Shown here piece after piece: positions 126 to 9,840 of a stretch of DNA of 34,198 nucleotides. Numbering within the stretch: the first letter of the stretch is position 1; each line of letters begins with the position of its first letter. Below the pieces are notes generated by a model. It made no database searches, was not told the origin of the DNA, and saw nothing but the letters and a program-made list of their open reading frames with translations. This DNA is from an uncultured Pirellulaceae bacterium (lineage in GTDB: Bacteria; Planctomycetota; Planctomycetia; Pirellulales; Pirellulaceae). The stretch is taken from the NCBI GenBank assembly GCA_937941455.1, contig CALDHM010000068.1, positions 1 through 34,198 of the forward strand, in the 5' to 3' direction. The translations under genes were made by a program, and so were the position numbers.

Positions 126-488
126 TTGACCGAACGCTCACCGAATAAGCGGATGGGCCGAAACCCTCAAGCCGGTCTGTCCTGATAAATGCTTTTTCGT
201 TCGAGCGCGGTGATTCTGAGCGTTAGCATCTGGGTAATCGCAGCCCGCACGACAACATCCTTGCTGACCAACATCTTTCTAGAACTTACCAAAATCATCG
301 ATCAGGTAGACGTTGTTGCCAATCGATATTCCGAAGCTAGGGTAGCTTTGCTAGACACCGTGTTCACCTCGCGCGGACACCGAGAGTTAACCCGTTCCGG
401 CTACTCGTTTCGGAACGAAACCTAGCATGGCCGGTGGAGGTTGGTGCCGTTGTCGTGGCGATGTTGGTCGGGTGTTTCGCAGTATGTA
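126..488. other. Intergenic region, no convincing gene
   Basis: This 363-base stretch separates a rightward gene end from the leftward argF end. Open frames exist, but none has a ribosome-binding site or protein-like composition. The only structure I see is the inverted repeat at 393-417, listed separately. Confidence 0.5.
393..417 (-). terminator. Inverted repeat downstream of argF, possible terminator
   Basis: CGTTCCG (393-399) and CGGAACG (411-417) form a perfect 7-bp stem with an 11-base loop, about 70 bases past the argF stop. There is no strong T-run on either strand, so intrinsic termination is only a guess. It could equally be a REP-like hairpin. Confidence 0.3.
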
Positions 489-1397
489 TTAGCCGATACT
501 CGTTTCCAGCAACCAGGCCATCAGGCCTTTTTGGGCGTGGAGACGATTCTCGGCTTGTTCGATCACGATACTGTGCGGGCCACTGATGACGGCGGCGGCG
601 ACTTCTTCTCCGCGGCGGGCCGGGAGGCAGTGCAAGAACTTGGCGTCGGGGCTTGCGGCTGCCATAACTGCGGGTGTGACTTGGAAGTTGGCAAAGGCCA
701 GTCTTCGCCGTTCCATTTCGGCCTCTTGGCCCATGCTGGTCCAGACGTCGGTGTAGACGAAATCGGCGCCGCGGACAGCCTCTCGTGGATCGGTGGATTG
801 GATACTGGGAGAAAAGCCCAAACCTTGCAGAAATTCGTGGGAAAACTGGAACCCCGCGGGTGCGGCGATCGAAAACTCGATTTGCAACTTACTGCAAATC
901 TCGGCAAGGCTGACGGCTACGTTATTGGCGTCCCCCACATATGCCAATTTGATCTGTTGTCGTCCTGCCGCATGTTCGCGGATCGTCATGATGTCGGCCA
1001 GCGCTTGGCAGGGATGAGAGGCGTCGGTCAGTCCATTGATGATCGGGCAACGACTGTATTTGGTGGCTTCGATCACATTTTGGTGGTTCTTTGCTCGGAT
1101 CACAAGGGCGTCGAGGTAGCTGGTAAGGATCGGCATGAAATCGCAGATGGGCTCTCGCGACGGCCAGCCTACGTCGGCTCCCAGATAGAGGCTGGAGCCG
1201 CCGTGTTGATTCATCAGGGACTCGAAGCTGACGCGAGTTCGCAGCGACGGTTTTTCAAATAGCAGACCGATGACCAAGTTTTGGAAAATCGGGCGGCGTT
1301 GTCCGGATTTGACTTCTTGTTTGAGACGCAAGCCCAGCGCGAGGATTTGTTCGATTTCGTCGCGTGACAGATCGCCGATGGACACCAAATGCCGCAT
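489..1397 (-). CDS. argF: Ornithine carbamoyltransferase
   Basis: This cytosolic enzyme of arginine biosynthesis transfers the carbamoyl group of carbamoyl phosphate to ornithine to give citrulline. The 302-residue protein has the usual family length. Visible motifs are the carbamoyl-phosphate loop FEKPSLRTR (48-55; the common form is STRTR), HPCQALAD (128-135), the ornithine-side SMG loop in TDVWTSMG (216-223), HCLPA (256-260) with its catalytic Cys, and the C-terminal AENRLHAQK (282-290). The intact SMG loop argues for ornithine rather than N-acetyl- or N-succinyl-ornithine as substrate, even though SLRTR also occurs in those relatives. The ATG follows an AGGAAA ribosome site and lies 37 bases after argB, so the two are surely co-transcribed. 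Confidence 0.95.
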   Translation of the reverse strand: MRHLVSIGDLSRDEIEQILALGLRLKQEVKSGQRRPIFQNLVIGLLFEKPSLRTRVSFESLMNQHGGSSLYLGADVGWPSREPICDFMPILTSYLDALVIRAKNHQNVIEATKYSRCPIINGLTDASHPCQALADIMTIREHAAGRQQIKLAYVGDANNVAVSLAEICSKLQIEFSIAAPAGFQFSHEFLQGLGFSPSIQSTDPREAVRGADFVYTDVWTSMGQEAEMERRRLAFANFQVTPAVMAAASPDAKFLHCLPARRGEEVAAAVISGPHSIVIEQAENRLHAQKGLMAWLLETSIG

Positions 1398-1434
1398 GGT
1401 GTGGGTTTCCTGAGGTTGCCAAAAGGTGTGTTAG

Positions 1435-2310
1435 TTATTCTGTGATGACGGTGCCGATGCCGGAGGAGGTGTAGACCTCGAGCAGGAGCGAGTGCCGGAT
1501 ACGGCCATCGATGATATGGATTTTCTTGACGCCTTGCCGCAGGGTGTCCAGACACGATTGCACCTTGGGGATCATGCCCCCGGAGATTTGACCGCTAGCT
1601 TGGAGTTCCTCGGCGGTGCGGCGGTTGAGGCTCGAAATCAAGGACGAGGGATCCTTGGGGTCGCGGAGAACGCCGGGCACGTCACTGAGAAAGACGAGTT
1701 TTTCGGCGTTCAGTTCAACGGCCAAGCGGGTCGCTGCCGTATCGGCATTGACGTTCAATTTCTGTCCGTTGTCGGTCAGGCACATTGAGGGAATGAACGG
1801 AACCTGGCCAGCGTAGCAGAGATTTTCGATGACCAGGCGATCGATGCGAGTGACGTCGCCGACGAAACCCAAATCGAACGGTTGGCCTTGGTCGTCGTGG
1901 AGGGTCAGCTTTTCGCCGAAGAGGACGGGGGTTGAGAGAAAATTAAGGGTCATGGCTCGCCCGCCGATCTTTTCAAATTCCTCGGCAAGGTAGTGATTCG
2001 TCTCGACAGCTAACACGCGTTCGACGATTTCTAGGGTCGCGGCATTGGTGTAGCGGCGGCCTCGAACGAACTTTGGTTCGATGCCTGCCTCTTGCATGGC
2101 GGCGTTGATCCGAGCACCTCCACCGTGGATGACCACCGGTCGCAAACCTACGGTTTCCATGAACAGGATGTCAAGCAGGATGTGCCGCAACTGATCGATA
2201 TTATCCAGGACGCTGCCGCCGAGTTTGATGACGGTGGTTTTGTCGCGAAACTGCCGAATCCATCCAAGTGCTTCGATGAGGGTGTCGGCTTTGTTGATGG
2301 CTTCTTGCAT
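1435..2310 (-). CDS. argB: Acetylglutamate kinase
   Basis: The enzyme phosphorylates N-acetyl-L-glutamate, the second step of arginine synthesis, in the cytosol. It is an amino-acid kinase fold protein of 291 residues from the start chosen here. Motifs are IKLGGS (28-33), HGGG (62-65), NVNAD (186-190) and SGGMIPK (243-249), all standard for the family. The open frame extends 41 residues upstream, but that extension is basic and low-quality and overlaps the preceding gene. The Met at 2310 ([17 protein letters not shown]) matches normal N-termini. The gene lies 67 bases after the lipid-type fusion gene and 37 bases before argF, all leftward. That spacing suggests one operon, although no functional link between the fusion enzyme and arginine synthesis is known to me. 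Confidence 0.93.
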
Positions 2311-2377
2311 GTCGGCCCAAACGGTAATGAAAGGAAAAAAACAAAGAAGCAAACGCGTGCGGACGGCTGGTCGCGTC

Positions 2378-5300
2378 TTAGATGACGCCGACGGGTTCGT
2401 CGGCTTGATGGCGGATCTGTGCCCAGATTTCACCGACAGCCGCGACGGTGTCGCGGATTTGGCGTTCGGAGTGGGCCGCCGTGATGAAGAAGCGGACTCG
2501 CGCCTGATCCTCCGGCACCGCCGGATAGAGGATCGGCTGCGCGTTGATGCCCCGATCGAATAATCCTTGGGACAACTGCAAGGCGCGGATGGAACTGTTG
2601 GTCATCGCCGGGATGATCGGCGAATCAAGGCTGGGACCGGTATCGATCCCCGCTTGCTTGGCGAGTTCGAGGAACAATTGAGAGTTTTCGCGTAGCCGTT
2701 GGACGCGCTGCGGCTCTCGGCGGAGCACCGCCAGAGCGCCCAGGGCGGCGCCGACATTAGCCGGTGGAATTCCGGCGGCGAATACATAGCCTGGGGTGGT
2801 GTAGCGGAGATACTCAATCAGGTTGCGACTTCCCCCGACGAAGCCGCCACAACTTCCAAATGCCTTGCTCAGCGTGCCCATCCAACATTCCACTTGGTCG
2901 CGCGGAATGTTGAACAGTTCGCCAACACCTCGTCCCGTTTTTCCTAGGGTCCCGATCGAGTGGGCTTCATCGATGAACATCCAGCAATGATGTTTCTGTT
3001 TGACGCGGACGAATTCCGGAATGTTGGGGTAGTCGCCGTCCATGCTGTACAGCCCCTCAATGCAGATCAACACCCGGCGATATTCGGCCCGGTTTTCGCG
3101 AAGGATTTCGTCGAGGTGCTGCCAGTCGTTGTGATTGAATGGTCGGCGGCGGGCCCCGGACAGTTCGGCACCTTGTATGATGCTGTTATGGGCCAAGGCA
3201 TCGTGGAGTATCAGGTCCCCAGCCCCGACCAAATGACCGATCACTGATTCGTTGGTCGCGTGTCCTCCGGGGAAGGTGATCACGTCCTCCACGCCTAAAA
3301 ATTCGGCCAGTCCGAGCTCGAGGTCGCGGTGGATCGTCTTCTCGCCGGAGACTAACCGGCTGGCAGAAACACTGGTGCCAAAGCGATCGATGGCCGCCTT
3401 GGCCGAGCCCGAGACCTCCGGGTGACCAGAAAGTCCCAAGTAGTTGTAGCTGGCGTAGGAAATCAACTCTCGGCCGCCAATGCGGGTCGTGTCGGCGATG
3501 ATTCCTTCGTGGACCGTGAAGTAGGGGTTGCGGAGTCCCGTCTTGAGGATTTGCTCCTTGTTACGTTGCAAGCGGATGTATTCGGGGGTTTTTTCTAGGA
3601 TGTAGTAGGTTTCGGGAACCGGCTGGCCCGCGCTGGTGACCTTGGGATGGCCATTGATCGGCGACGATTCGTTCACGACGGTTGTGCCCAAGTATTCTTG
3701 TACGGCGGCAGCTACCTCGCGAACGGTTTCGATTTCTTGGAGTACTTCATCGGGCAGTCTCCCGCCGAAGGCGGTTTCCAGCATACGGGCGATCTCGAGC
3801 CGCTCCAACGAGTCCAGGCCCAGATCGACCACGATATTGGAATCGGCGTTGATGTTTCGAGCCCGTTCGGCGCCGACCTGTTTGACCGCTTGGATGACCA
3901 TACTCAGCACGTTGCCGTCGACTGGCGCGCCATTTTGCTGCACGGGTGATTCGGCCGCAGCCGTGGTGGTTCCTTCGTCATCGAGGATACTCCACCGTTC
4001 CAGAACGAGTAGCTTGTTCTCGAGATATTGTTCGCGGCAGGCATGGCGTTGTACCTTGCCGCTCGATGTTTTCGGTATGGAATTGGCGCGTACGAGGACG
4101 ACTGCATCCGGGGGGAGATCGTGTTCGGCGATCACGCTCTTGCGAATCCGTTCGATCAAGCCGTCAAGGCTGGAATGGGGGCTGCGTTCCACCTCGCAAA
4201 CGACAACCAGGTGTTCGCGATCCCATCGCTGTACGGCGAAGGCGGCGGCGCCGGTGGTCCGCAAGCGTCGGTCGCACGATTCGACGGTGGCCTCGATGTC
4301 TTGGGGATAGCGATTGACACCGCGGATGATGATCATGTCCTTGAGACGTCCGGTGACGAATAGTTCGCCGCGGTCCATGAAGCCCAAATCGCCAGTCCGC
4401 AGAAAACGGCGGCCGTCATCGGGGTTCAACGCGGCGCGGAATGTGCGTTCCGACTCATCTGGCTTGTTCCAGTAGCCTAATCCTACGCTGGGGCTGCTGA
4501 CCCAGATCTCACCGATTTCGTTTTCCGGCATGAGCTTGCGGGTTTCGGGATGGACGATCAAGACTTGTTCGCCGTCGATGACTTGGCCGCAACCGACCAA
4601 CTCTTGAGCTTGCGGGTCATGGGTCGAGAGCGGTGCGACTCGCTGCTCGACAAGTGCCGAGCGATCGAAGGCGCGGATGATCGGCTCGGCCTGGGCATCG
4701 CCGCCGGTAACGATCAACGAAGCTTCGGCCATACCATAGCACGGATAATGGGCTTGATACCGAAAGCCGTAGGGGGCGAACCGCCGCGTGAAGGCCTTGA
4801 GGACGTTCGCGCGCACCGGTTCGGCTCCGTTAAACGCGATCGTCCAGCAGGAAAGATCGAGGCCCTCGCATTGCTGGTCCGTGATCTTGTCGGCGCAAAT
4901 CGCGTAGGCAAAATTCGGTCCGCCCGAGCAGGTGCAGCGATATTTGTTGATGGCGCTCAACCAGCGGATTGGCCGCGTTAAGAAAGAAACCGGGGACATC
5001 AAATTCTGAGCGGCCCCGGCGAAGATCGGGTTCAAGATTCCGCCGATCAATCCCATGTCATGGTAGGCCGGCAGCCAACTGCAGCCGACGGCATCGTGGG
5101 TCAGGCCAAAGGCTTCGGTGATCATGCGGCAATTGGCCATCAGGTTGCTGTGGGTCAGCATGACCCCCTTGGGGGCACCTGTGGATCCCGAGGTGTACTG
5201 CAGGATGGCGACATCATTCGGATTGATTTTCGGTTTGACCCAATCACCGGCCAGTTCGGTCGGAATCTGCTCGGTGGCGATCCAAGGTATTCGTTGCAGG

Positions 5301-5725
5301 TTGGGGGAATCGTCGAGCATCCCCTCGCGGCGATCGCGGACGTCGGTAACGGTCAAGGCCACGCTGGCATCGGCATCTTCGGAAATGGCGTTGATCCGCC
5401 CCATATTCCGATTGCGTCGGGGTGGGTAGGCGGGGACCGCAGTGACGCCCGCGTAGAAACAGCCCATCAAGGCTTCCACGAACGCCAGGCTAGGCGGGTA
5501 GAGCAATAAGGCGCGATGCCCACGCATCCCCTCCCCGACCAAGTAAGCGGCAATTGCTCGTGCCCGCTCGTCGAGTTGGGAGTACGTCAGTTCAAGATCG
5601 ACCTCAGCGTCCCGGAGAAAGCGAAACGCAATATCTTCTGGTTTAGCCGAGGTCCAATACATCATCCGTTCTACAAACACCGTTTCCGGTGGGGAGAACG
5701 GGGCCATTAACTCAGCGATTTTCAC
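2378..5725 (-). CDS. Fused fatty acyl-AMP ligase / acyl carrier protein / alpha-oxoamine synthase
   Basis: This 1115-residue protein combines three modules. Residues about 1-575 are a fatty acyl-AMP ligase: P-loop [10 protein letters not shown] (178-187), [14 protein letters not shown] (216-229), RTGDLGF (443-449) and the C-terminal Lys in PKTSSGK (Lys557). Residues about 600-680 are an acyl carrier protein with phosphopantetheine Ser639 in LGLDSL. Residues about 705-1105 are a PLP-dependent alpha-oxoamine synthase like BioF or serine palmitoyltransferase, with DEAH (919-922) and Schiff-base Lys954 in GTLSKAFGS. Inferred reaction: a fatty acid is adenylated, loaded on the internal carrier, and condensed with an amino acid with loss of CO2, giving a long-chain amino ketone such as a sphingoid-base precursor. 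Product and amino acid cannot be read from sequence. The ATG is preceded by AAGGGAG. It heads the argB-argF run. Confidence 0.9.
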
Positions 5726-5874
5726 AGTTTTTTGGTCTCCCTTGGGACCTTCCCCTTGAAGTCGTATCCATCACATCAGTGGAAAATTTCGGTCGACGAT
5801 CAACCCAGGGGCACAACGTCGATTGCGGCGTTTTTGGGCAAGCCAGGCCTGTTCCCTTTATCGGAAAGTTATCG

Positions 5875-5883
5875 ATTATAGCA
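5875..5883 (-). promoter_or_regulatory. Extended -10 promoter for the fusion gene/argBF run
   Basis: On the minus strand the sequence reads TGCTATAAT, a perfect -10 hexamer with the TG extension, about 150 bases upstream of the fusion-gene ATG. No good -35 hexamer is visible at 16-18 bases, which fits an extended -10 promoter. Transcription would start near 5868 and leave a leader of roughly 140 bases. Confidence 0.55.
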
Positions 5884-6121
5884 GTTTAGGAAATTCTGAT
5901 TACAGGGATTACGAAGGTTGCCAGCGGCCGGAAGCCGGTTTTCGTCGTGGAAGTGGGGGGCCAGTCCTCGCTCCAAAAGGGCAACAGCGGACCGTTTTTG
6001 ACGACCGAATCGTTCCTGCCACATTCACCGGTACAATTGTTTGACCTGAGGAAATTTTGCCGATGTAGGCGGTGTCGGCGGCTTATTTTCCGTTGACTTT
6101 CGCCGGGGCAAGCAATAATTC

Positions 6122-6212
6122 CCCGGGTGAACTTTCGTGATTGTCCTTGGTTTGACAATCGGGAATCCTCCCCGGGATGCGGTGATCATTTCCCCGGCCA
6201 TTGTCCGGGAAC
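6122..6212 (+). other. Cluster of hairpins upstream of the zinc-ribbon gene
   Basis: Three CCCCGG-containing segments occur within about 90 bases. GATTGTC (6139-6145) pairs with GACAATC (6154-6160) across an 8-base loop. This hairpin is framed by CCCGGG at 6122-6127 and 6171-6176, which can pair outside it. A second hairpin at 6190-6212 pairs TTCC(C)CGG with CCGGGAA around CCATTGT. This could be a leader RNA structure or a protein-binding region. I do not recognise a known riboswitch. Confidence 0.3.
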
Positions 6213-6291
6213 ATCCTTGTGAAACAACCCGACAACCTCAATTGAATCGCGATTCGATAGTTGACTTCGTAAAAAGATTGGGTATCCAACT

Positions 6292-6501
6292 GTGGCCAAC
6301 GTGGATTTGATCGACGAAACTCGTGAGACGTTCTCGGCCAGTGACGTCAAATACTGCCGTTCCTGTTGGCGGCCCGAGGTTCATCGTCCAATTCCGATCA
6401 CGCCCTTTTTGTTGGGCTTTTTGACGGTCATGACGTTAGGATTGATTTTTTGGATTCGACCCACCCGCTGCGTCTGCTGTGGGAAAACAAAGGTGATCTA
6501 G
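6292..6501 (+). CDS. Small zinc-ribbon membrane protein, function unknown
   Basis: This 69-residue open frame starts at GTG. It has a Cys pair YCRSC (Cys22, Cys25), one hydrophobic segment (about 37-55, FLLGFLTVMTLGLIFW), and a second Cys cluster RCVCCGK (Cys60, Cys62, Cys63) close to the C-terminus. Two CxxC knuckles separated by a single hydrophobic hairpin or membrane segment is a pattern seen in small bacterial zinc-ribbon membrane proteins. Two Cys pairs and a hydrophobic core arising by chance in 69 codons is unlikely, so I take it as real. The ribosome site is weak. No neighbour on the same strand gives a functional clue, and I assign no role. Confidence 0.55.
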   Translation: MANVDLIDETRETFSASDVKYCRSCWRPEVHRPIPITPFLLGFLTVMTLGLIFWIRPTRCVCCGKTKVI

Positions 6502-6825
6502 GCCACGTTGGCATTGCTCTCGCATCAACCGATCCAGGTCAACTCTTGCGAGAGTCTCACGCCCGGTGAGCCATTGATCCGCAAGGCCGACAAAGAAAAC
6601 AACAACGACGGTGATCGCTGATTCGCGCCGGAATTGAGTTCCATTACAGACGCAGCCGTATGTCCCGCCCAGTTTCGTCGCGTTGTTCGTCACTTTTCCT
6701 CACGGAGTTCACACCCGTACTGACCCTCGCGGTACTCGTTCTCGCAGTCGAATCCTCTCAATCTCCAGCGGTTGGTTGAATCGATCGAGGCGATGCCCGA
6801 TTAAAAGCCCGGGCAAAACAAGCGA

Positions 6826-6857
6826 AAAAACCGTCATGCGAGCACATGACGGTTTTT
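6826..6857 (-). terminator. Strong intrinsic terminator of the BBP7 gene
   Basis: AAAAACCGTCATG (6826-6838) and CATGACGGTTTTT (6845-6857) form a perfect 13-base inverted repeat with a 6-base loop. Read on the minus strand, the stem is followed by a run of six T. It sits about 110 bases past the BBP7 stop. Its A/T flanks would let it work in both directions, so it may also end transcripts from the zinc-ribbon gene. Confidence 0.8.
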
Positions 6858-6860
6858 CTT

Positions 6861-6892
6861 ACGTTGCCGACGTTTTACGTTGCCGACGTTTT
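6861..6892. repeat. 16-bp exact tandem duplication
   Basis: ACGTTGCCGACGTTTT occurs twice in immediate succession (6861-6876 and 6877-6892), directly beside the terminator. It could be a replication slippage product; no function is evident. Confidence 0.85.
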
Positions 6893-6967
6893 GCTCAGAG
6901 TTGGTCCCTGAAACACGTTCAACAGGGCCATACGCTACCGACTTTATTCCACGCTATGGGTGCGAAT

Positions 6968-8524
6968 CTAGAAGCAGAAATTCAAGCCCCCGAAAAACCC
7001 GTGGAGCAACAAGCCACTGTTGGAATTGATCCGTTCGATCTGGTTGACATCGGTGAAGTTGACCGGGATTTGATTCGGAGCCAATGCCAAGCCGGTAACC
7101 CCGATCAAGCGGTACCCGACGACCGCTCGGCAACGATTGCTGAGCAGGTAGCCAAGGCCAAGGTCCAACTCGCCTAGCGTCGCCAAATCATTCTTCGACG
7201 ATGAAAAATCATAGGGCATGCCAGAATTCGGTCCCGCGTTGATATAGGAGACGAACCCTGTCTCGTCGGAAATGCGTTGACGGTGCCGAATGTGATTGTT
7301 GAAAAGCCCGAATCGAACACCGGAGATCAGTTGCAACCGATCGGTGACGAAATGGCTGCCGCGACCGCCGAATTGATAGCCCATCAACGTGTTCCGGCTT
7401 GTAATCCGGTAATCCAAACGCGTCGGAGCCGCCGTCGAAATTGCTGAATATTCGAAGACTTCATCGAACTCGAACCAGCGAGCACCGTGCAGCAATTCAT
7501 ACGAGGCGTTGCGGAAGAACAAGCCATTGAAATTGCCAACGTTGAGCAAACGATTGATTTCCAAATTGTGCATGCGGTTCGAGCGGCACAACTCATGGGC
7601 ACCCGCGACATTGAAAACGCCTTGGACACTGGTTCCCGCGGGGTCGTGTTCGATCAGAGACAAGCCGTCCAGTACGGTGAACGGTGTATCGCTAATGAAA
7701 GCGCCGCCGCAACCGGAAAACAGACCCCAATAGCGAGCCTCGAATCCGCGACCACACGCGTTGCGAGTCTGGGCGAACAGCTCGACCCCGCCCAGGGCTG
7801 AGTGCGTGGCGTTGGTCGAGAACATCGATTGCCCTAGGCTGTTGCCGCTAAGTGCGATATCGTCCTCGTAATCGCGGAAGAAAACCAAACCATTCGCACC
7901 GAGCACGATATTGCGGGCATTGCGACCGACTCCGCCGATCGTGGCCACCCGAGCATGGGGAGGGCCGTAAGTCGAGTCGGCGAAGTAGGTGCCGTGGCCT
8001 GGGCGAGTGACGGGGCCATTCCAGACTTGTTCCGTTCCAGGATAATAAGGCCCTTGGTAATAATTCGCCCCCCCCTGAGGAGCTCCCTGGACAGACCCCG
8101 GCAATGCGGACTGGCCGTTTTGGTAACTGGGATTGAAATAACCGTTGTTGGTACCCGCTTGGCCATTGACGGCATTTGCCGACCCTGGCTCATAGCCGGG
8201 TGCCGATTGAACAGACGCTGAGCCGTAGGCGGGGCCCCAAGTTTGGCCGGGCAGGCAGTTTTGGGGTGCTCCTTGAAACTGAGGATACGGCTGACTTGGC
8301 ACGTTTGGTGCTTGAGGAACTTGAGAGTAGCTTGCGGATGTTTGGTAAGCCCATGACTGATTCGGTGGCGAGAAATCGTTGTTGCCACTGACGGTCGGCA
8401 TCCCCTGCATCACCGACCGGCCGTCAATCATGCCGGGGCGATCCCAGTTGGTTTGAGCCGTAGCGACGGACGACGCCAAGGTCAGCCCTAGCCAGGCCAT
8501 GCTGATACGCCAAAAGCATTTCAT
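6968..8524 (-). CDS. BBP7-family outer-membrane beta-barrel protein
   Basis: This 518-residue protein has a clear signal peptide (MKCFWRISMAWLGLTLASSVATAQ, about 24 residues). A low-complexity linker rich in Gln, Pro, Tyr, Gly and Asn follows to about residue 170. The remainder (about 190-518) alternates hydrophobic and polar residues as in a beta-barrel and ends in GGLNFCF, an aromatic C-terminus typical of outer-membrane proteins. It resembles the BBP7 family, which is expanded in planctomycetes; its cargo or function is unknown. The ATG has a good site, AGGAG, seven bases away. It appears monocistronic, with a strong terminator downstream. A G8 tract on the coding strand (8068-8075) encodes part of the Gly-rich linker. 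Confidence 0.82.
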   Translation of the reverse strand: MKCFWRISMAWLGLTLASSVATAQTNWDRPGMIDGRSVMQGMPTVSGNNDFSPPNQSWAYQTSASYSQVPQAPNVPSQPYPQFQGAPQNCLPGQTWGPAYGSASVQSAPGYEPGSANAVNGQAGTNNGYFNPSYQNGQSALPGSVQGAPQGGANYYQGPYYPGTEQVWNGPVTRPGHGTYFADSTYGPPHARVATIGGVGRNARNIVLGANGLVFFRDYEDDIALSGNSLGQSMFSTNATHSALGGVELFAQTRNACGRGFEARYWGLFSGCGGAFISDTPFTVLDGLSLIEHDPAGTSVQGVFNVAGAHELCRSNRMHNLEINRLLNVGNFNGLFFRNASYELLHGARWFEFDEVFEYSAISTAAPTRLDYRITSRNTLMGYQFGGRGSHFVTDRLQLISGVRFGLFNNHIRHRQRISDETGFVSYINAGPNSGMPYDFSSSKNDLATLGELDLGLGYLLSNRCRAVVGYRLIGVTGLALAPNQIPVNFTDVNQIERINSNSGLLLHGFFGGLNFCF

Positions 8525-9243
8525 TGGTTAACTCCTAAAGGTATTTTCACGTCTGCAACCGCGCTAGGTCGCTCATTGCGCGAAATTCGCAGATCAGTCA
8601 GGAACGCAACGCGACGTAGGATCATGCCCAACCCAATATCAGATGCGATCCGCACAATAGCTGCCGTTGAAATCGTCCCGAAAAGCCAACCAAACCATAC
8701 CGTAATCAGAATTGGAACCCAAATTTTCAAGCTGCTGCTGGGACAACTGATTCAGACTGAAAACTTTATCAGGCGGTCGGCCGTCCGGACCATCACCGTA
8801 AAAACAAGCCTCTTCCTCGCTAAATTCGATGCGTACAGCACATTCGTCAAAGTTTCGCAGACGGCAGTGGCCAAGGCTTAGGAAGCGGTCGATCGCAGCA
8901 AGTTTGAAAGTTGGGGAATCGCCTCAGCGCCAGGAGATTGACCGCCACCAAGAATTCGTAAGGGATCGATCGCAGCAAACGTTGAATTCCGTGGCGAACT
9001 GGAGGCTAGAGACTACCCCCTACACGTTCGCGAACCATCGACGCCACCTCTGATTACACGCTGGCATCGGCAGGGGTAAGCTCGTTTTGGCACAATGCGA
9101 TCAGGTACGATGCGATCAGGTCCGCGGGGCGCCACGCCTGTTTGGCTAAAGGGTGGTTTCGCAAAAAAATAAATTATGTTCCAATATCGAACAGTTTCTT
9201 GCGAATCCAGCATGTTTTCCACCTCGTTCCTCGGAGTTGTTCC
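8525..9243. other. Long divergent intergenic region between BBP7 and lemA
   Basis: This is a 719-base stretch between divergent genes. Several short frames exist. One on the minus strand (8521-8730) encodes a hydrophobic 69-residue peptide from a TTG start without a ribosome site, which I do not accept. Visible structure is a 15-base near-exact tandem repeat at 9095-9124 and two copies of GATCGCAGCAA near 8890 and 8967. Promoters for both flanking genes should lie here, but I cannot fix them. Confidence 0.5.
9095..9124. repeat. Tandem 15-bp repeat upstream of lemA
   Basis: ATGCGATCAGGTACG (9095-9109) is followed at once by ATGCGATCAGGTCCG (9110-9124), differing at one base. Direct repeats of this spacing about 120 bases ahead of a start codon could be operator half-sites or simple slippage. 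There is no further evidence either way. Confidence 0.6.
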
Positions 9244-9840
9244 ATGTCCCTAGTCGCCGTCGCCATCACTGTGCTTGCGATCTTGTTTGTCGTGCTGGTG
9301 TTTCTCGTCGGGATCTACAACAGCCTGGTCAAACTGCGCAATCGTTACCAAAACGCATATTCCCAAATCGACGTGCAACTCAAGCGGCGTTATGACCTGA
9401 TTCCCAACCTGGTGGAAATGGTTAAGGGGTACATGAAGCATGAACAAGAAACGCTGCAACGAGTGATCGAAGCCCGCAACATCGCCATTGCCGCCGGGCA
9501 AAAGGCTGCCGCCAATCCTGGTGATCCCAACTCGATGCGGCAATTGGCCAGCGCCGAAAGCCAATTGGGGGGAGCCCTTAGCCGTTTGTTGATGGTGGCC
9601 GAGGCGTATCCCGAACTCAAGGCGAATCAAAACATGATGGCCTTGCAGGAGGAGCTGACTTCGACCGAAAACAAAATTTCGTTCGCCCGCCAAGGGTACA
9701 ACGACGCCGTCACGGAATACAATAACGCTCGCGAAGTTTTTCCTGCGGTGATTTTTGCCGGCATGTTCGGTTTCGGCCCCGCGCAATTGCTTGAAATCGA
9801 AAACCAAAAAGAACGCGAAGCTCCGAAGGTACAATTTTAA
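9244..9840 (+). CDS. lemA: LemA family protein
   Basis: This 198-residue protein has one N-terminal membrane anchor (about residues 4-24) and the signature NSLVKLRNRYQNAYSQIDVQ followed by RRYDLIPNLVEMVKGY, which is diagnostic for LemA. LemA proteins are membrane-anchored helical bundles of poorly known role, often encoded beside an M48 metalloprotease or a TPM-domain protein. Here the M48 gene follows after 125 bases. The frame extends 34 codons upstream, but the Met at 9244 directly precedes the membrane anchor and has GGAG eight bases before it, so I use it. The helical region ends in a charged tail (NQKEREAPKVQF). Confidence 0.9.
   Translation: MSLVAVAITVLAILFVVLVFLVGIYNSLVKLRNRYQNAYSQIDVQLKRRYDLIPNLVEMVKGYMKHEQETLQRVIEARNIAIAAGQKAAANPGDPNSMRQLASAESQLGGALSRLLMVAEAYPELKANQNMMALQEELTSTENKISFARQGYNDAVTEYNNAREVFPAVIFAGMFGFGPAQLLEIENQKEREAPKVQF

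Follow-up and report, generated by a model that had tools for sequence, protein, structure and literature searches.

What would a protein do that joins a fatty acyl-AMP ligase (FAAL), an acyl carrier protein (ACP) domain, and a pyridoxal phosphate (PLP)-dependent oxoamine synthase (AOS) in one chain, and does its place at the head of an argB-argF gene pair bear on that activity? The question is raised by a gene of an uncultured Pirellulaceae bacterium (order Pirellulales, phylum Planctomycetota), on contig CALDHM010000068.1 of GenBank assembly GCA_937941455.1, of which we analyzed positions 1 to 34,198; this whole stretch of 34,198 nucleotides is referred to as the window. Sequence comparison points, with a probability of roughly 0.6, to a single-chain lipid starter enzyme in which the FAAL would load Ser639 of the carrier and the AOS would convert the load to a long-chain 2-amino-3-ketone, most likely with serine. 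The arginine genes are probably incidental neighbors.

The gene encodes a complete three-domain fusion

The fusion gene and its parts are arranged as follows, all on the minus strand.

2378..5725, minus strand: FAAL-ACP-AOS fusion gene, 1115 aa with a GTG start (from the open reading frame [ORF], Pfam, and homologs)
3992..5677, minus strand: FAAL domain, residues 17-578 (47% identity to 7r7e-g; FAAL-type insertion)
3926..3979, minus strand: flexible FAAL-ACP linker, residues 583-600 (predicted local distance difference test [pLDDT] <50 in the AlphaFold2 model)
3686..3919, minus strand: acyl carrier domain, residues ~603-680, with the Ser639 codon at 3809-3811 (PF00550; Ser639 conservation)
3464..3673, minus strand: ACP-AOS linker region, residues 685-754, segments 685-699 and 725-754 having pLDDT <50 (AlphaFold2 model)
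2411..3580, minus strand: AOS domain, residues 716-1105, with the Lys954 codon at 2864-2866 (Pfam, Lys954, and tree)

A first-pass annotation, made from the sequence by eye, had read this gene as a FAAL-ACP-AOS fusion with a P-loop, a carrier Ser639, and a PLP Lys954. All three domains are indeed complete by Pfam, with matches to AMP-binding (27-419), the DIP2-like C-terminal AMP domain (463-574), PP-binding (621-675), and Aminotran_1_2 (754-1096), and both residues are where that annotation put them, Ser639 within LGLDSLE and Lys954 within TLSKAF. The fusion is not a chance joining: of 80 loci retained after public genomes were scanned, 27 match it along all or most of its length, and some of these are truncated by contig ends. 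The AlphaFold2 model (mean pLDDT 79.6, pTM 0.54) has three folded domains separated by low-confidence linkers, and the relative placement of the domains in it is not reliable; the loose linkers are what a swinging carrier would need, which is no proof of transfer.

Conservation was assessed on an alignment of 102 distinct homologous proteins, a set that includes a divergent paralog (L154; 36% by tblastn, without a carrier match) and one row cut by the end of its locus (L140). Ser639, the FAAL residue Lys557, and His922 are kept in all 102 rows, Ser923 and Lys954 in 101, and Ser953 in 100. The P-loop lies at residues 177-187, where 10 of 11 positions are unchanged in 100 or more rows and only 184 varies freely, in agreement with the first-pass annotation. 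The sole change of Lys954 is in L218, whose AOS is degenerate. This homolog (5839-9318, minus strand, genome G001) is a fusion with an AOS that lacks the PLP lysine along with further residues of the motifs, and G001 carries a second ACP-AOS gene (L281, 3564-5072, plus strand). The paralog L154 (1396-4725, minus strand, genome G018) is a divergent second FAAL-AOS protein of 36-38% identity with no recognizable carrier match by blastp.

The activating domain resembles FAALs and is followed by a carrier domain

Residues 17-578 form a FAAL-type domain, as judged by an insertion and by the nearest structures, and acyl transfer to a carrier rather than to CoA is predicted. The FAAL-type insertion spans residues 338-392 (55 residues versus 29 in E. 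coli FadD) and is retained by 7/7 homologs aligned alongside FadD. The closest solved structures are FAALs: all 13 PDB chains at E ≤ 1e-60 are of this kind, several having entered the database under the name acyl-CoA synthase or polyketide synthase (PKS), and Foldseek likewise returns FAAL-kind structures at ranks 1-29 of the best 50. The top match is the FAAL of the Synechococcus olefin synthase (7r7e-g, 47% identity), structures of which have been solved with palmitoyl- and stearoyl-adenylate. That FAAL supplies a polyketide synthase, not an AOS. Residue 238 was considered as a guide to chain length, as Ala238 sits at the position of the Synechococcus A229I mutant, but this position is Arg in 45 of the 102 homologs, and therefore no chain length was inferred for the family. 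The carrier domain scores 40.5 bits against PF00550 (cut-off 20.8), and its DSL motif contains the phosphopantetheine serine, Ser639.

The oxoamine synthase groups with serine palmitoyltransferases

The best solved relatives of the AOS domain are a Thermus enzyme resembling 8-amino-7-oxononanoate synthase (AONS) and KBL (240.7 bits), plant LCB2a (234.8), human SPTLC2 (222.4), the Sphingobacterium serine palmitoyltransferase (SPT; 217.5), and E. coli KBL (213.5). The modeled AOS aligns to 7poa/8s1y with 33% identity over ~390 columns at a TM-score (TMt) of ~0.87 and a root-mean-square deviation of ~12, and given this deviation it superposes poorly as one body.

We then placed the domain in a maximum-likelihood tree of 61 AOS sequences (LG+F+G4; supports given as SH-aLRT/ultrafast bootstrap by bipartition), from which rows L218, L183, and L188 had been dropped beforehand and in which the fusion rows had been thinned. 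The fusion AOS falls in a group of 32 sequences (99.9/100) together with the AOS domains that end PKS proteins of the order and an ACP-AOS from Moorena. The sister of this group is eukaryotic LCB2 (91.2/98); both, with three other AOS sequences (L258, L263, and L154), form a group supported at 92.3/100, which in turn joins SPT and the cysteate-using SulA at 93.5/97. SulA and SPT themselves form one clade (98.5/100) next to that of the fusion AOS, and the KBL group (95/99, including the Thermus enzyme) and BioF lie outside. Because the tree set was assembled without ALAS, LCB1, or Rhodobacterial SPT, the apparent sister relation to LCB2 is provisional. The position of this lineage as sister to LCB2, in a tree of modest size, may be relevant to how eukaryotic SPT arose.

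Three relatives and one further enzyme deserve description here. Two further Pirellulales genomes encode single proteins with the layout KS-AT-DH-ER-KR-ACP-AOS (L276, 1046-8869, plus strand, 2607 aa; L278, 1419-9086, plus strand, 2555 aa), and in Moorena bouillonii (L280) a FAAL gene and an ACP-AOS gene are divergently arranged (5541-7448, minus strand, and 7774-9507, plus strand), the same set of domains in split form. The genome from which the window comes also encodes a second AOS (L011, 1399-2676, minus strand), which groups with SulA (99.2/100) and adjoins an ORF resembling a transporter by eye; it is a possible second amino-lipid enzyme.

At the active site, the fusion AOS, plant LCB2a, and human SPTLC2 share a DEAHS motif, and Sphingobacterium SPT has DDAHS; the residue after the histidine is Gly in SulA, BioF, and the Thermus enzyme and Ala in E. 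coli KBL. An enzyme that ran the same chemistry with another amino acid (glycine, alanine, cysteate, or other), to yield a 1-deoxysphingoid base, a long-chain aminoketone, or a capnine-like base, has to be weighed here. In its favor, AOS specificity is not certain from motifs, cysteate-using SulA shares its clade with SPT directly beside the fusion AOS, and every SPT model scores below its cut-off. The serine that follows His922 in 101 of the 102 rows, as in the SPT and LCB2 references and unlike SulA, E. coli KBL, and BioF, argues for serine instead, but two proteins of the KBL clade share it, and we regard a substrate other than serine as unlikely, though well worth keeping in view.

A proposed three-step route to a long-chain amino ketone

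In the favored reading, with serine as the amino acid, the FAAL domain would first adenylate a free long-chain fatty acid using ATP; the acyl group would next be taken up by the carrier domain, on the phosphopantetheine arm of Ser639, and not by CoA; and the PLP-dependent AOS (Lys954) would then condense the carrier-bound acyl group with the amino acid, most likely serine, releasing CO2. The product would be a long-chain 2-amino-3-ketone, probably 3-ketosphinganine or a close analog. We infer the activity and the transfer within one chain from the complete domains, the near-invariant catalytic residues, the FAAL insertion, and the grouping of the AOS with SPT, SulA, and LCB2, all of which lend the enzyme model of the first-pass annotation support at the level of sequence; the amino acid, the chain length, and the onward fate of the product are likewise predictions. 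The KS-AT-DH-ER-KR-ACP-AOS proteins and the FAAL/ACP-AOS pair of Moorena are also consistent with an AOS whose substrate is a fatty chain on a carrier.

Several observations weigh against this reading. The motif evidence for serine as substrate is indirect: a serine after the histidine also occurs in the two KBL-clade proteins (L260 and L266) and in uncharacterized AOS, and the serine before the PLP lysine is also present in the Thermus enzyme. No NCBIfam SPT cut-off is reached (NF047600, 294 versus 640 bits; NF047599, 276 versus 500; NF047603, 215 versus 670), and the best-scoring AOS model is bioF, itself below its cut-off (338 versus 426). One homolog, L218, has lost the PLP lysine, and no neighbor gene for ketone reduction or N-acylation is common to the loci.

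Relation to known systems

The nearest precedent is a set of separate proteins. Carrier-dependent formation of 3-oxo-sphinganine has been established for AasR, AcpR, and SPT of Rhodobacteria (Caulobacter CC_1165, CC_1163, and CC_1162), according to the portions of the study that describe them (PMC9386255). That system, as outlined there, likewise comprises a dedicated fatty-acid activator, a carrier, and a PLP-dependent serine palmitoyltransferase, activities that in the fusion are predicted; it differs in being made of three proteins, whereas the fusion is one chain with a FAAL-type activating domain. The protein would combine in one chain what Proteobacteria divide among AasR, AcpR, and SPT, and most of the order has kept it. 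Its AOS lies nearer LCB2 than bacterial SPTs do, in a tree composed without Rhodobacterial SPT.

The first-pass annotation had called the fusion a plausible undescribed lipid system. Its architecture was in fact tabulated in 2013: Table 2 of Milano et al. (PMC3870968) lists A-CP-PLP2 proteins, including Blastopirellula marina A3ZWL3 and Microscilla marina A1ZVW4, in the same domain order, gives their cluster type and product as unknown, and carries entries without a distribution across the order. A3ZWL3 is probably orthologous to the fusion, being likened to it by its domain listing and not by sequence. Function, by contrast, appears undescribed in the literature searched: exact-phrase searches of open-access papers yielded no characterization of the fusion, no paper joining "fatty acyl-AMP ligase" with "oxoamine synthase" or "serine palmitoyltransferase," and none joining FAAL, fatty acyl, sphing, and PLP, an absence that is weak because only exact phrases and open-access papers were covered.

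A second comparison is with BioWF, described in the relevant part of its report (PMC9544090) as a di-domain pimeloyl-CoA synthetase/AONS that uses a CoA thioester and alanine in biotin synthesis. Like the fusion it joins an acyl-activating domain to an AOS domain; it differs in having two domains and, from the route predicted for the fusion, in having a CoA thioester as donor. A Black Sea study, in the section concerned, reports 138 Planctomycetota metagenome-assembled genomes (MAGs) with Spt-like proteins (PMC11334938). Eukaryotic LCB2/SPTLC2 and bacterial SPT share with the fusion AOS the fold, the DEAHS/DDAHS motif, and a supported clade, and are AOS subunits without a FAAL or a carrier. 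Their acyl donor is a CoA thioester.

The fusion is widespread in Pirellulales and rare elsewhere in the phylum

In the family Pirellulaceae, 192 of 199 genomes match the fusion at E ≤ 1e-100, part of them not at full length, and at least 144 of the 199 have, among the matches listed, one open-frame match running from residue ≤78 to ≥1094. Thirteen genomes (11 of this family) in which matches were at first weak, split, or absent were searched again. The fusion was found in one frame with a longer linker in G045, G091, G130, G149, and G066; G009, G073, and G104 have in its place a FAAL-only frame and, apart from it, ACP-AOS in frames of ~2600 aa, about as long as the KS-AT-DH-ER-KR-ACP-AOS proteins; in G002 and G033 the halves lie on separate contigs, G117 has a fragment, and G200 a FAAL-ACP within a 2724-aa frame; in G203 this re-search found no fusion. 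Among other families, 11 of 15 same-order genomes examined carry the fusion. With an ACP-AOS query, 286 of 296 Pirellulales genomes match at E ≤ 1e-40, where KBL-type proteins pass as well, and 250 of 296 at E < 1e-130, a count in which PKS-end AOS stand with the fusions.

Across the phylum, in a search that scored the best candidates per genome, 18 of 294 genomes match at E ≤ 1e-120; most of these matches are partial, and the whole-length ones belong to the same order. Partial or divergent fusions occur beyond the order in G431, G302, and G264, and two further fusions are in MAGs labeled Phycisphaeraceae (L035) and Burkholderiales (L034). Two full-length copies occur only in G035 among the matches listed, the second copy of G018 being divergent. 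The fusion is thus widespread in its order and rare elsewhere in the phylum.

This breadth bears on whether the protein might instead be the starting or only module for a polyketide- or pyrrole-type metabolite and not for a membrane lipid. Close AOS relatives end PKS proteins of the order, an ACP-AOS sits beside a FAAL gene in Moorena bouillonii, and the relevant table of Milano et al. (PMC3870968) places the architecture among NRPS/PKS-type proteins; a second AMP-binding-type ORF lies downstream of three homologs. The fusion is nonetheless widespread in the order, with two full-length copies only in G035 among the matches listed, and no PKS or nonribosomal peptide synthetase (NRPS) condensing domain was found among the Pfam-scanned neighbors of the fusion loci, which makes a role in specialized metabolism improbable.

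Neighboring genes outside the arginine clade are variable

Away from the clade with arginine genes, neighbors of the fusion vary (ABC transporter, mutY, hisS, GGDEF, SRP54, and enolase). The commonest is a convergent gene, present at 23 of 62 loci; of the members scanned against the BBP7 porin model (cut-off 26), L218 passes at 29.1 bits, L029 fails at 19.0, and L193 gives no match. The next clusters, at 15, 13, and 12 of the 62 loci, are a weak TraB/PrgY match, a sugar-isomerase-like TIM barrel, and a PQQ-repeat protein, and no recognizable lipid enzyme is among the common clusters.

Some individual genes were also recorded. An aldo/keto reductase lies just downstream of one homolog (L217, 9441-10472, plus strand), and the second AMP-binding-type ORF lies some kilobases downstream of the fusion in L014 (17191-18894, plus strand), L018, and L020; each is a possible single-lineage pathway partner. 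Upstream of the fusion in the window, a 518-aa ORF (6968-8524, minus strand) resembles an outer-membrane barrel protein by eye; searches of Pfam and NCBIfam gave it no match at E ≤ 0.001. A 600-aa ORF of L259 has no PDB match and is probably an antisense ORF.

The arginine genes are a clade-limited neighborhood

Downstream of the fusion lie two arginine genes, and a promoter-like element precedes it.

1435..2310, minus strand: argB, acetylglutamate kinase, with its ATG at 2310, 67 nt after the fusion (TIGR00761, 216.3 bits versus 151.3)
489..1397, minus strand: argF, ornithine carbamoyltransferase, with its ATG at 1397, 37 nt after argB (NF001986, 354.2 versus 306; TIGR00658, 309.6 versus 280.85)
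5883-5875, minus strand: extended -10 promoter-like TGCTATAAT, ~150 nt before the GTG; the sole match in the window, 0.15 being expected

The first-pass annotation had given gaps of 67 and 37 nt, which are exact; its interval, 1435-5725, covers argB and the fusion and leaves argF outside. The single visible promoter that it described finds weak support in TGCTATAAT; a two-hexamer sigma-70 scan of 300-7000 returned 0 sites, including no -35 partner for this element, and an Rfam scan returned no RNA match.

The gene order behind the co-expression that it described, as a possible control of amino-acid supply or an accident, is not unique to this genome: the fusion and argB are adjacent on the same strand in 12 genomes of three genera, with argF next in 11. 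By genus, the link is present in 4/4 genomes of one genus (those with the whole gene), in 7/12 of g67, and in a single g13 genome; the two genes are separated by -4 to +226 nt, the lower value being a 4-nt overlap in G047. The link had appeared at 1 of 27 loci in the first public-genome scan and in these 12 genomes in the later locus set. On a 100-tip tree, however, all 12 linked tips fall within one 30-tip clade (support 1.0), of which 18 tips lack the link, and none of the 70 tips outside has it; in four of the 88 negative tips (L166, L167, L168, and L227) there are <400 nt downstream, and an argB lying farther off could have escaped notice. A cluster resembling RNase PH by eye comes after argF at six linked loci and, in L247, immediately after the fusion.

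Functional co-transcription with argB-argF, for instance for pathway supply or control of a lipid head group derived from ornithine or arginine, would accord with the recurrent same-strand order, with the overlap in G047, and with the 4 steps that the trait takes on the tree (at least 8 in 1000 shuffles). This clustering is explained by common descent, and other homologs adjoin mutY, hisS, SRP54, enolase, and other genes; we consider such a link very improbable. Because the link is confined to one clade and lacking in 18 of its tips, it is not needed for function, and arginine co-function as a part of the mechanism was rejected on the basis of the neighborhoods and the tree (12 of 100 tips). 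We read the adjacency as an old neighborhood of one clade, lost several times, a parsimony count alone being unable to separate gain from loss. The arginine link is real but clade-limited, and the genes are probably incidental neighbors with no part in the mechanism.

Implications

The fusion is a real enzyme, complete and well conserved; its chemistry, as predicted from sequence, is of a known kind, its architecture has been catalogued, and it is unusually widespread within one order. Retention of the gene across most of an abundant order of bacteria makes it a probable marker of a signature lipid. We also raise a broader and doubtful proposal, that the Pirellulales owe an unreported, order-wide sphingoid-type base lipid to a one-chain FAAL-ACP-SPT, and that no bacterial lineage is closer to LCB2, the catalytic subunit of eukaryotic SPT, than this AOS lineage, whose members occur in planctomycetes, at the ends of PKS proteins, and in one cyanobacterium. 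If the product is a sphingoid base, the Pirellulales would form a large group that makes sphingolipids by way of a single protein, surveys for a stand-alone Spt may misjudge the fusion, and the fused carrier would offer a compact system in which to study and use acyl-carrier-dependent oxoamine synthesis.

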